IMG/VR virus record: IMGVR_UViG_3300023179_000158
Location: 1 to 50,525 of that record
DNA: 50,525 nucleotides
DNA from: a virus
Direction: 5' to 3' (one strand)
Positions 39,197 through 44,104 of this stretch are shown piece after piece (position 1 is the stretch's first letter; every line of letters starts with the position of its first letter). Below the pieces are notes generated by a model. That model had not been told where the DNA came from and did no database searches. It saw nothing but the letters and a program-made list of their open reading frames with translations. Made by a program: the position numbers and the translations under genes.

Positions 39197-39631
39197 ATGT
39201 CTTGGACATACCAAGGTACGATTATCAATGAATTACCGGAGGACTGTGTAGGTTTTGTTTACCTCATTACTAACACAGTCAATAATAAAAAATATATAGG
39301 CAAAAAATTATCTAAATTTTCAAAAGTAACTTACAAAACATTAAAATTAAAAAACGGCACAAAGAAAAAGAAACGCATAAAATCTAAAATAGACTCAGAC
39401 TGGCAAACCTATTATGGCTCAAATGAACAACTCAACAAAGACGTAGCACAATTAGGCACAGATAAATTTGTAAGAGAAATATTATACTTCTGTAATTCAA
39501 AGGCAGAATGTTCCTATATTGAGGCACGAGAACAATTTACACGTAAAGTACTAGAATCAGACGAATACTATAACGGACATATACAAGTCCGTGTCCATGG
39601 CACACATATCAAAGGCAAATTAAACGGTTAA
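39197..39631 (+). CDS. GIY-YIG endonuclease (Seg-like, putative homing endonuclease)
   Basis: 144 aa. The nuclease domain starts GFVYLITNTVNNKKYIGKK (about residues 15-33): here the GIY is GFVY and the YIG is intact. A Lys-rich insert (about 36-58) follows, then WQTYYGSNEQLNKDV, FVREILYFC and a Glu-containing CSYIEAREQ that should hold the catalytic metal-binding Glu. Free-standing GIY-YIG genes of T4-like phages (Seg type) are often homing endonucleases, but this short compact kind is widespread in marine phages and may have another DNA-processing role. Located 3 bp after the Hc1-like gene and directly before the hairpin-rich region. Confidence 0.8.
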   Translation: MSWTYQGTIINELPEDCVGFVYLITNTVNNKKYIGKKLSKFSKVTYKTLKLKNGTKKKKRIKSKIDSDWQTYYGSNEQLNKDVAQLGTDKFVREILYFCNSKAECSYIEAREQFTRKVLESDEYYNGHIQVRVHGTHIKGKLNG

Positions 39632-40091: not shown

Positions 40092-40649
40092 ATGAAAATC
40101 GCTCAACTACTACAATCGGTTAATGAAGCAGGTGCAAGATCAGCTTCCCAACAATCTTCAATGCAGGCTGCTGCTTCAGGAACTACACCTCCTCCTAATC
40201 TAACAGTTCAACAAGGGGGCAGAGGACAACCTCGAGCTACTACAACAGCACCTACAACAAACGCAGCACCTACAACAAACGCAGCACCTACAACAAACGC
40301 AGCACCTACAACAAATGCCGGGCCGGGATTAACACAGCCGTTACCTCCTGCAGATCCAAATGCACCTAGTCTAGCAACTAGGATTGGACGTGGCATAGGA
40401 GCTGCTGGTAAGGCTATAGGAGCAGTAGCAGGTGTTCCTCAAGGTTTAGGGCGTGCTATAAAGAAAGGGTACCAAGCAGGAGTAGATACTATAGGTGGAC
40501 CAGGCGCTTCCCCCGCAGGTGGAGCTCAAGCCGCATCTGCTCAGAGCGTTCAGGCTACAAATAATGAGTTAGATCAGTTGAAAGCCACTCTACAGTCACT
40601 AGACCAAAGGATGCGTAGAGCAGGGTTTGAAGAATCAAAAAAACGGTAA
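40092..40649 (+). CDS. Repeat-containing small protein, possibly an internal head protein, 185 aa
   Basis: Not recognised by family. The N-terminus MKIAQLLQSVNEAGARSAS is a short amphipathic helix resembling the targeting peptides of T4 internal head proteins (e.g. MKTYQEFIAEA), which gp21 protease cuts after (L/I)-x-E; here the match would be VNE, a weaker site. Residues about 20-90 are low complexity, with four APTTNA repeats (53-76). About 95-155 are Gly/Ala-rich with small basic patches (GRGIGAAGKAIGAVAG, LGRAIKKGYQAG). The C-terminus (about 157-185) is a short coiled-coil helix. It has a perfect late promoter, so it is a late, probably virion-associated protein. Its end overlaps the converging gene by 15 bp. 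Confidence 0.6.
   Translation: MKIAQLLQSVNEAGARSASQQSSMQAAASGTTPPPNLTVQQGGRGQPRATTTAPTTNAAPTTNAAPTTNAAPTTNAGPGLTQPLPPADPNAPSLATRIGRGIGAAGKAIGAVAGVPQGLGRAIKKGYQAGVDTIGGPGASPAGGAQAASAQSVQATNNELDQLKATLQSLDQRMRRAGFEESKKR
40248..40319 (+). repeat. Tandem repeat, 4 x 18 bp
   Basis: Four units of GCACCTACAACAAACGCA encode APTTNA. Three are identical and the last differs at the end (AATGCC). The unit length is a multiple of three, so copy number can vary without shifting the frame. Confidence 0.92.
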
Positions 40650-40841
40650 TCCGCTTTCTTTTGTAGTTTCTAGATTTTCTTTTATTAGTTCACTGATTAT
40701 TTCTCTATCAGTTACATCTAATTGATAGGCCTGTTCCAAGTTTAATGCTCCTCGCATGTACCAGGCCATCTTATATAATTCTTGTTTTAGGGCTTTTGAC
40801 TCTTTGTCCAAGTTATCTACTTCTACTTGGATTTCGGCCAT
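40635..40841 (-). CDS. Short tail-assembly frame downstream of gp26-like gene, probably reached by -1 frameshift
   Basis: 68 aa from the ATG at 40841 (MAEIQVEV); the frame is also open upstream through TTG codons at 40847 and 40853 and further back to the end of the gp26-like gene. Helical and acidic (LDKESKALKQELYKMAWYMRGA, LDVTDREIISELI). No ribosome binding site precedes the ATG. The gp26-like gene ends 9 nt upstream in the +1-related frame and has a T TTT TTC heptamer at 40865-40871, so slippage would fuse this segment to it. In other phages the second tail-chaperone frame is made in just this way. A free 68-aa product is the alternative. Confidence 0.65.
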   Translation of the reverse strand: MAEIQVEVDNLDKESKALKQELYKMAWYMRGALNLEQAYQLDVTDREIISELIKENLETTKESGLPFF

Positions 40842-40849
40842 TGTCAATG

Positions 40850-41725
40850 TCAAAAGCCTTGCCCGAAAAAATCAGAATTATTAAAAGTAATAGGAATTTT
40901 ATAAGTTGGTGGTGCGCCTAGTTCTTGTTGTTCAGGTGTACTTTGGAATTCTAGAGGCTTCATATCGTTGTGTTCTTTCAGCAACTTGATGTGTGATTGA
41001 ACTTTTTCAAATATTTCTTTGTCTGTATTGGATATAAATTCTTGAATGAAATGCGGGTTAGTAACTTCACCTTGAGGTGTAACGATTTTGTATATAGACT
41101 CACCTAATAGATTAACCGTAATATCAGTTAGTTTGGCAAAACTTTCATTAAAAATTTCCAACTTTTTATCATCAGGTATAGTATCATCGTTGGCCATATT
41201 AAGGATTCGGTTTGTTTCAAACGTTTTTACACTGGTTTTATTCAAGTGACGATAGGTTAATGGTTTAACATATATAATTAACTCATCATTTACGGCTACC
41301 TGTTCTGTCCATGAATTATAACTTTGTTGATCTAGTAAATGTCTAAGGTCTATGTCATAATCTACTTCTTCGTCTGTATTGGGAACCTTAAATTTTAAGG
41401 GCATACGTTCCCCATAGGTAGCAATACGGATTGCAATTAAAATAGTATCTAAGTCTAGATTGGGACAGTTCCAGGCATTTTTAATATTTGGCAAACAACT
41501 TTGTATAACATCCACTATCGCTTGACCATTCATTAGAGCGTCGGGAGTCTTGAACAATAACTCGTCTTTGGCAGTCATGGAATACACGGGATATTCACCA
41601 TTTTCAGTAATCACAATAGATCCCGGCTCCCAAAACTTACCTTGACTGGGCAGTTGAATATAAATTTTAGGTTGACGCATCCACTGACTTAATGGATTGG
41701 TCTTTTGGGCTGCTTGATATTGCAT
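40850..41725 (-). CDS. 26: gp26-like baseplate hub/tail assembly protein
   Basis: 291 aa. The sequence IYIQLPSQGKFWEPGSI, GEYPVYSMTAKDELLFKTPD, ALMNGQAIVDVIQSCLPNIK and DTILIAIRIATYGERMPLKF is the pattern of the T4-type baseplate hub assembly family (gp26; T4 gp26 is 208 aa). T4 gp26 acts with gp51 in hub and tape-measure assembly, a chaperone-type role. The gene lies divergently from the tape measure gene. It has a perfect TATAAATA late promoter and GGAG ahead of the ATG. Its 3' end contains the -1 slippery heptamer; frameshifting would yield 363 aa. Confidence 0.78.
   Translation of the reverse strand: MQYQAAQKTNPLSQWMRQPKIYIQLPSQGKFWEPGSIVITENGEYPVYSMTAKDELLFKTPDALMNGQAIVDVIQSCLPNIKNAWNCPNLDLDTILIAIRIATYGERMPLKFKVPNTDEEVDYDIDLRHLLDQQSYNSWTEQVAVNDELIIYVKPLTYRHLNKTSVKTFETNRILNMANDDTIPDDKKLEIFNESFAKLTDITVNLLGESIYKIVTPQGEVTNPHFIQEFISNTDKEIFEKVQSHIKLLKEHNDMKPLEFQSTPEQQELGAPPTYKIPITFNNSDFFGQGF
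40865..40871 (-). promoter_or_regulatory. Canonical -1 frameshift heptamer T TTT TTC
   Basis: In the gp26-like frame the codons are GAT TTT TTC, i.e. X XXY YYZ in the correct phase. After a -1 slip the next codons are CGG GCA AGG CTT TTG ACA TTG ACA ATG, which run straight into the 40841 frame. The zero frame stops five codons later (TGA at 40850-40852). A small CATT/AATG inverted repeat lies about 17 nt downstream; no strong stimulatory structure is evident by eye. Confidence 0.65.
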
Positions 41726-41800: not shown

Positions 41801-44104
41801 ATGAACGGTGCAACAGAAGCCACACTAGCAGAATTACTAGCCGAAGCTAAGGCTATGAATGTGAATTTAGTTTCATTGAACAGAATGATCAATTCACCTA
41901 ATTCTGGCATTAACAGCGCCAGTAATAGAGCAGCACAGGGAGTAAACAATTTAGGCAATGCTGCCAGCAATGCCGGCACAAAATTAAATTTACTTGCCGC
42001 AGCAGGCAACGTCATAAGCGGAACTTTTAGTTTTTTCAGCGGTATTATAAGTTCGGTTATAGGAGGACTTACTGAAACAGCAAAAAGCCTATATGCTTTT
42101 AGTTTAAAGGCCGCAGAAGGAACAGCACGCCTTAGTGATTTTTATGACTCTTTTAAAAATTTACCTTTAGGTTTAGGTACCTTAATGGGAATCCTAGCAG
42201 ATCAAACTAGGATAAACGAGCGATTACTAGATACCTATAGAAGTATTACATCTGCAGGAGTGTCGTTTGGTGGTAGTCTCAGTGATGTTAGAGATGCTGC
42301 TACAAGAACATTTTTATCATTTGAAGAATTAGGTAGAGTAAGCAGAGATAATAGCGAAATATTTGCCACCATGGGGGGCAATGTAGATAGGGGATTTAAT
42401 AAATTTGTTGATACACAGAACAAATTAATAACGAAATTTGGTAGCCAACTTCTAGGATTAGGATTAACGTCTGAGGGTGCTGCTAACATGCTGGCAATTT
42501 TTATGAACAATGCTGGTAATTTAAGCAGAGCAGAACTGGCCAATAATGATCTACTTGCACAAAGTGTGGTCAATATTACCACGCAGATGGACGCTTATTC
42601 TAAAATTACTGGTAAGAGTCGCGAAGCACTTGAAGCAGAAATGAAGAAGAAATCCTTTGACGCTGCTTGGAAAACATTTACTGCTGGCATGAGTCCGGAA
42701 AAAGCAGCCAGTGCTCTTGCTGCTATAGAATTAGCCACTGCCAAGGGAGGTGAAGGTGCAGGTGACGCTCTGAAGCAAATGTTTATGACAGGCGGTCAAA
42801 TTTCTACACCTATAACAGAGGCGGCTAAGGCGTTTTATGTTCAGACACAGGGCGGCGCAGAGACATTTACTCAACAGATGTATGATTCCGTGCAGAACAT
42901 GCGTGCTGGAAGTGAAGAACAACTTTCAATGCAAATGGAGGCAACTAGACGTTTAGGCCAACAGTATAATGAATTCATAGGACCTATGGGTGAGATGGGT
43001 GCTATACGGTCATTACAAGGTGACAAATTTGTCAATAATTTTAACTTGATGAACACAGCTTTAGTAGATGGACGTAGAACGCAGGCAGAACAACAACGGG
43101 CAGTTGCCGAAGCCCTGCAGAAACAAAAAGATCAGGCTAATGGCAGTGCCCAATCATTTGCAAAGGCCGAATTAAACATTAGACAATTTGGCAACGCATT
43201 GAACGGTATTATAGGTGGTGTGCTAGCACCGTTTTTAGAATTAGCACAAAGATTTAGCCAAGCATTCTTAGAGTACCTTATTCCTGTTGCTACAGATTTA
43301 GCGAAATGGCTAGGGGACCAATTACAGGCAATTAGGTCTGCCTATGGAAGCGGGGGATTCACTGCTGCGTTTCAACAAATATTGAAAAGTTTAGGCAGTG
43401 GTGTAGATAATCTTATCGAAATGTTTAAACCCACTTGGGAAAAAATTCAACCTATGGTAATGACTGCCATAGACGACACATGGAATTTTGTTAAACCATA
43501 CATGGTTAGGGCATTTGATGGTCTAGTTGAATTTTTAAAACCGTATCTGATGAGAGGTTTTGCTGCAATAATGGATGAAATTAATGGGCAAATTTATAAA
43601 ATGACAGGCGGAAGATATGGTGATGATAGAAATAGATCTGAAATTCGAAGAGAATTTGATTTTCAACAATCTATAATAGACGCTACCAATAAGGCAATTA
43701 GAGATGGCAATGCTTCTGCAGAACAATTAGCCGCATCTGTAGTAGCCAAGAATAAACAGTTACAATTGTCTGAAATAGAAAAACGATATATAGGTCTAAG
43801 TGATTCTGAAAAAGAAAAATGGAGAATGCCTGAAGTTAGACATAAAGGTACACTAGGTATGACAGGCAATTGGTGGGAAAAAGAAAACGCTACATTAAAT
43901 GTTCAAGCGGGAGAGAGTGTGGTCACTGAAGATCAAATGCGTCAAATTGTAGATACAGCAAGTCAGTCTGGGCTTGCTGATAGCATAAACCGCTTAAATA
44001 GTCTAACCGCAGAGTTAATTAGAACCACTAAACAGGTAGCTGCCAATACAGCGGCTAATGTTAGTGCTACAAAATCTCTAAATGATAACCTTTGGGCAGC
44101 ATAA
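41801..44104 (+). CDS. 29: Tail tape measure protein (gp29-type)
   Basis: 767 aa, longer than T4 gp29 (590 aa). Long helical protein with two hydrophobic stretches: about 55-110 (NVISGTFSFFSGIISSVIGG) and about 463-500 (ALNGIIGGVLAPFLELA), as expected for a tape measure that threads through the tail tube and enters the membrane. The N-terminus has coiled-coil character and the C-terminus ends in Thr/Ala/Asn-rich helix. It fixes tail length; if the T4 ratio holds, the tail would be longer than T4's. No Shine-Dalgarno sequence precedes the ATG. It is divergent from the gp26-like gene and is followed 3 bp later by the portal gene. The family call rests on length, composition and context. Confidence 0.78.
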   Translation: MNGATEATLAELLAEAKAMNVNLVSLNRMINSPNSGINSASNRAAQGVNNLGNAASNAGTKLNLLAAAGNVISGTFSFFSGIISSVIGGLTETAKSLYAFSLKAAEGTARLSDFYDSFKNLPLGLGTLMGILADQTRINERLLDTYRSITSAGVSFGGSLSDVRDAATRTFLSFEELGRVSRDNSEIFATMGGNVDRGFNKFVDTQNKLITKFGSQLLGLGLTSEGAANMLAIFMNNAGNLSRAELANNDLLAQSVVNITTQMDAYSKITGKSREALEAEMKKKSFDAAWKTFTAGMSPEKAASALAAIELATAKGGEGAGDALKQMFMTGGQISTPITEAAKAFYVQTQGGAETFTQQMYDSVQNMRAGSEEQLSMQMEATRRLGQQYNEFIGPMGEMGAIRSLQGDKFVNNFNLMNTALVDGRRTQAEQQRAVAEALQKQKDQANGSAQSFAKAELNIRQFGNALNGIIGGVLAPFLELAQRFSQAFLEYLIPVATDLAKWLGDQLQAIRSAYGSGGFTAAFQQILKSLGSGVDNLIEMFKPTWEKIQPMVMTAIDDTWNFVKPYMVRAFDGLVEFLKPYLMRGFAAIMDEINGQIYKMTGGRYGDDRNRSEIRREFDFQQSIIDATNKAIRDGNASAEQLAASVVAKNKQLQLSEIEKRYIGLSDSEKEKWRMPEVRHKGTLGMTGNWWEKENATLNVQAGESVVTEDQMRQIVDTASQSGLADSINRLNSLTAELIRTTKQVAANTAANVSATKSLNDNLWAA

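Follow-up and report, generated by a model that had tools for sequence, protein, structure and literature searches.

The question raised by the minus strand of this 50.5-kb virus record (the window) is how a short reading frame at the end of a gp26-like gene comes to be translated, and whether its product is joined to that of the gene before it.

The gp26-like gene and the frame at its end

The gp26-like ORF (Table 1) scores 51.7 bits against the Pfam family T4_baseplate (PF12322), well past its gathering cut-off of 24.5, and also matches PHROG 150, a baseplate hub family. It therefore falls, like T4 gp26, in a family that Pfam describes as T4 base plate protein. The nearest named relatives of the protein are found in the T4-like jumbo phages Atu_ph07, Phosso, PA5oct, RaK2, 121Q and GAP32, at ~25-31% identity, and IMG/VR holds closer relatives with up to 70% identity.

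Read on the minus strand, the gene ends in the codons AAT TCT GAT TTT TTC GGG CAA GGC TTT TGA. The canonical slippery heptamer that had been noticed in the preliminary description, T_TTT_TTC, is thus present and in the right phase. It had been placed five codons before the stop, where we count four sense codons between the heptamer and the TGA. Among the 117 loci compared below, the zero-frame stop lies one sense codon past the heptamer in 79. A -1 slip at this site would lead without a stop into the next frame, as had been proposed, since this frame is open to position 40638; the 76 residues added, which end in LETTKESGLPFF, would make a 363-aa fusion. As predicted from the sequence, the short (291 aa) and long (363 aa) forms, which would be the two versions of a tail assembly chaperone (TAC), TAC-N and TAC-NC, share their N-terminal domain.

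On the opposite strand, a convergent gene (40092-40649) shares the last 15 bases of its 3' end with the end of the -1 frame; part of its product is of low complexity, with repeated APTTNA units. In addition, a SegE-type GIY-YIG homing endonuclease is encoded at 39197-39631 (plus strand; Pfam E 3.2e-32), near tail and portal genes.

Table 1. Features of the locus, with positions in the window, and the sister-clade loci used for comparison.
Feature	Position	Strand	Basis
TAC-N: gp26-like ORF, 291 aa, PF12322 / phrog_150	40850..41725	-	Pfam E 1.2e-13, PHROG E 9.4e-17; baseplate hub gp26 annotation in relatives
Slippery heptamer T_TTT_TTC, in zero-frame phase	40865..40871	-	sequence; in phase in 117/117 relatives
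Zero-frame stop TGA, within 5' arm of stem	40850..40852	-	sequence
TAC-C: -1 frame extension, 76 aa plus stop (40635-40637)	40635..40865	-	open in all relatives; dN/dS 0.12-0.24 where computable; stops always in the other two frames; helical fold
5' arm of candidate stimulatory stem, GGCTTTTGAC	40849..40858	-	6-nt spacer after heptamer; covariation in relatives
3' arm of candidate stimulatory stem, GTCAAAAGCC	40791..40800	-	covariation in relatives
Divergent neighbour, 767 aa, candidate tape measure and likely client (inferred)	41801..44104	+	virion structural family phrog_14121, E 4.4e-4
Sister-clade gp26 3' ends examined			L018, L122-L124, L126, L127, L129-L213

Conservation of the heptamer and proposed translation of the -1 frame

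We compared 117 loci with a complete gp26 C-terminus, made up of the window, GenBank phage loci and IMG/VR loci; because a few of the IMG/VR loci duplicate GenBank phages and many of the 117 are related, these do not represent 117 independent events. A search for relatives starting from the Vibrio 2.275 protein found no related loci. The alignment of homologues that the preliminary description had proposed as a check bears out both the heptamer and its phase, which are kept in all 117 loci, as T_TTT_TTC in 115 and as T_TTT_TTT in RAS14 and XacN1; RaK2, GAP32, 121Q, PA5oct, Atu_ph07, Vibrio 2.275 and SCTP-2 are among the phages that carry it. In every one of these loci the heptamer is followed by an open -1 frame, 69-80 aa long where complete (one runs off its contig). 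Within the 76-aa class this frame is free of stops in 82 of 82 members, all of which have stops in both other frames, and dN/dS for the extension lies at 0.12-0.24 in the three comparisons with computable dS. Furthermore, in the 80 relatives that could be aligned without gaps, variability peaks at the third position of the zero frame upstream of the heptamer and at the third position of the -1 frame downstream of it. The locus thereby combines an in-phase X_XXY_YYZ heptamer with an open, conserved -1 frame under purifying selection, the marks of a -1 frameshift site.

The FF dipeptide that the heptamer encodes is itself invariant in the protein alignment, and the heptamer might have been kept for that reason and no other. 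However, these loci contain 426 further FF dipeptides, of which just 37 (8.7%) are coded as T_TTT_TTY, and the position before FF can be occupied by N, D, T, S, H, R, A or Y, yet the codon there always ends in T. With the octamer TTTTTTCG at zero entropy across the 80 ungapped relatives, conservation of the dipeptide has a negligible probability of being the explanation.

The downstream frame might instead be a separate gene that is translated by coupling, for example from the TTG that overlaps the gp26 stop in the window (TTGA) or from the ATG at 40841. Database records frequently list a small CDS of its own here, and in 15 of the 117 loci ATG is the second codon of the extension and can overlap the stop as ATGA (e.g., L006 and L030). 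No start position is conserved, however: start codons in the extension frame are scattered among the 117 loci, 47 of which lack any ATG, GTG or TTG within the first 12 codons and 12 of which lack one within 25, and a search across the relatives for a conserved start codon or Shine-Dalgarno sequence in the second frame found none. The AAGG in the window lies 3 nt before the TTG, too close to act as a Shine-Dalgarno sequence. In line with the earlier remark that the ATG lacks a ribosome binding site, the sequence upstream of 40841 reads CAAGGCTTTTGACATTGACA, without a Shine-Dalgarno. Since the starts are scattered and the ATG of the window has no such sequence, separate initiation is not the conserved mechanism; coupling also leaves unexplained both the invariant in-phase heptamer and the stem six bases after it (described below), and we regard it as very unlikely. 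In most of the annotated jumbo phage records (L006-L023 and L214), the extension frame is either left without annotation or entered as a hypothetical protein of its own, with starts that do not agree.

The long form could also arise by slippage of the RNA polymerase, rather than the ribosome, on the run of six Ts, which is extended to seven in RAS14 and XacN1. Slippage on homopolymers is known in bacteria; by general knowledge, though, six Ts followed by a C make a short run for a polymerase to slip on, and a conserved final C with a spaced, covarying stem downstream is typical of ribosomal frameshifting. A transcriptional origin is, in our judgement, highly improbable. The comparative evidence thus argues with high confidence for -1 programmed ribosomal frameshifting at T_TTT_TTC, and the joining of two tail-assembly frames by this means, as first proposed from the window alone, is strongly supported by the invariant heptamer, the switch in the frame of variability, the lack of a conserved start and the covarying stem.

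A candidate stimulatory stem and a sister clade in the +1 frame

Downstream of the heptamer lies a stem that the preliminary description had not noticed: the RNA of the window can pair GGCUUUUGAC (40858-40849) with GUCAAAAGCC (40800-40791), giving 10 bp that enclose 48 bases, and in many relatives the stem reaches 13-18 bp. Of eight sequences that were folded, six have z-scores between about -4 and -8, with -2.8 for the window and -1.5 for RaK2. Across the relatives the stem is longer than in codon-preserving nulls (mean 10.6 versus 7.1 bp). The window's own 10-bp stem is only moderately unusual against such nulls (19 of 200), so that its support comes from the relatives. We tested covariation over 13 pairs in 52 aligned sequences, using 500 shuffles and a control in which the partner was slid by one base. 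In this alignment 93.5% of cells are paired and 64 changes are two-sided, with pairs 21/74, 22/73 and 23/72 exchanging G-C, A-U, U-A and C-G. The stem exceeds the shuffles on four of five measures (0/500); the covariation score is 0.290 versus 0.124, with none of the 500 shuffles reaching the observed value, and it drops to ~0.05 when the partner is slid by one base, a control that allows for the relatedness of the sequences, which the shuffles ignore.

In the window's clade, the covarying stem and its 6-nt spacing agree with the ~5-9 nt at which a stimulatory structure is looked for downstream of a frameshift site, and the pattern of covariation makes the stem a candidate stimulator. It is not universal, as the RaK2/Mimasvirus group keeps the heptamer with a stem that is weak or absent and nowhere convincing. 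Searches for an upstream Shine-Dalgarno stimulator found none in 79 of 80 sequences, and Rfam yielded no known RNA element. The 5' arm is fixed after the heptamer, and the distance to its 3' partner varies by subclade, at about +73, +66 (L048, L050, L093), +54 (L065, L066, L070, L081, L085, L095-L097) or +36 (L075, L089).

A different arrangement is seen in relatives of the gp26 proteins of immuto, Mel-JY01, LR756508 and SP-15, where a C-terminal domain related to that of the window (profile probability 93%) is encoded in the +1 frame. About 79 IMG/VR loci share the near-invariant junction TTT-(C/T)TT-T(GG/AC/TC)-CCT, and five SP-15-type loci have another +1 junction. This suggests +1 recoding in the sister clade, some members of which could use an overlapping start instead, as LR756508 could with its ATG. 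We give even chances to the broader view that this is one homologous chaperone family in which the direction of recoding goes by clade, being -1 at T_TTT_TTC and apparently +1 at TTT-YTT-T in the immuto/Microcystis-phage-like loci, with the stem of the -1 clade keeping a 5' arm that can overlap the zero-frame stop as its 3' partner moves among the four distances given above.

The chaperone reading and related systems

A chaperone role for the gp26-like gene is likely from its family and from gene order. The gp26 homologue is flanked in SP-15 and LIS04 by the tail tube gene and an annotated tape measure, and in immuto by a gene labelled tail completion protein and the annotated tape measure; this is the classical chaperone position. 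At the locus studied here, the divergent neighbour, which the preliminary description took for the tape measure, sits beside the portal, and the neighbouring gene is annotated as structural (ESI-MS/MS) in PA5oct and as similar to a tape measure protein in RaK2. It is a likely candidate for the tape measure. AlphaFold models TAC-N with confidence (pLDDT 85) and predicts a helical fold for the C-terminal domain (pLDDT 91). A search of PDB structures returned no significant match for either model, with chance-level matches for TAC-N that include no known TAC; the C-terminal domain has no named family in Pfam, PHROGs or the PDB and no convincing Pfam match. It does weakly match a Moogle protein named tape measure chaperone (structural match, prob 0.57).

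In phage lambda, a short chaperone, gpG, and a long form made by -1 frameshifting, gpGT, are tied to the tape measure. The heptamer of lambda differs from T_TTT_TTC. The locus in the window resembles this pair in having a short form and a -1 long form and departs from it in that its putative tape measure is transcribed divergently, not downstream on the same strand. In the mechanism we propose, most ribosomes would read the gp26-like frame to its stop to give TAC-N, and a fraction would slip back one base on T_TTT_TTC, probably helped by the stem that begins six bases further on, and read another 76 codons to give TAC-NC. By analogy with gpG and gpGT, TAC-N and TAC-NC may then cover the tape measure protein while the tail is being assembled, and the C-terminal domain of TAC-NC may recruit tube subunits.

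Frameshifting is reportedly conserved in several T4-like groups, and T4 itself is said to use genes 26 and 51. The chaperone genes of T4-like phages were identified by Vladimirov, Gautam and Davidson (Virology 2022, 566:9-15), as that paper is cited in PMC10885494 and PMC12846349, the second of which refers to it on poly-T -1 slippery sites in the TAC-N genes of T4-like phages. Some T4-like phages have, besides a short gene, a longer fused one that is separate from it (PMC10885494). At the chaperone locus of the Vandenendeviridae/Andersonviridae, as in Pseudomonas phage Adele and Citrobacter phage Moogle, TAC-N ends with a poly-T site, GTTTTT, and the -1 frame there is open (PMC12846349), an arrangement like that of the window, albeit in other phage families and with another motif. 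The preliminary description knew of no frameshift in the T4-type gp26/gp51 system; going by these citations, one had already been reported. The gene kind and the product pair are the same as in the T4-like TAC-N/TAC-NC genes so cited, and the locus is a further example of the frameshifted chaperone already reported for T4-like phages.

Unlike the window, T4 has no frameshift arrangement: gene 25 follows gene 26, and gp51 is encoded separately on the opposite strand. By eye, the C-terminal end of T4 gp51 resembles the C-terminal domain described here, so that gp51 looks like a gp26-type domain followed by this domain, and T4 would therefore be a two-gene version of the same product pair. A comparison of the chaperone profile with the single T4 gp26 and gp51 sequences gave weak, non-significant matches (probability 12% or less). 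This proposed relation of gp51 draws on the title of the 2022 paper, on the citations of it and on inspection by eye.

These results correct how the gp26 region has been annotated across a large group of T4-like jumbo phages, in which the second frame is as a rule either missed or entered as a hypothetical protein. They also support a change of name for the gp26-like gene, from baseplate hub subunit to tape measure chaperone. The stem offers a directly testable candidate for a stimulator of frameshifting. The same homologous domain is apparently attached by a -1 shift, by a +1 shift or as a separate gene, depending on the clade; if the direction of recoding does go by clade, the family would provide a natural series for studying how evolution rebuilds a frameshift signal or reverses it.
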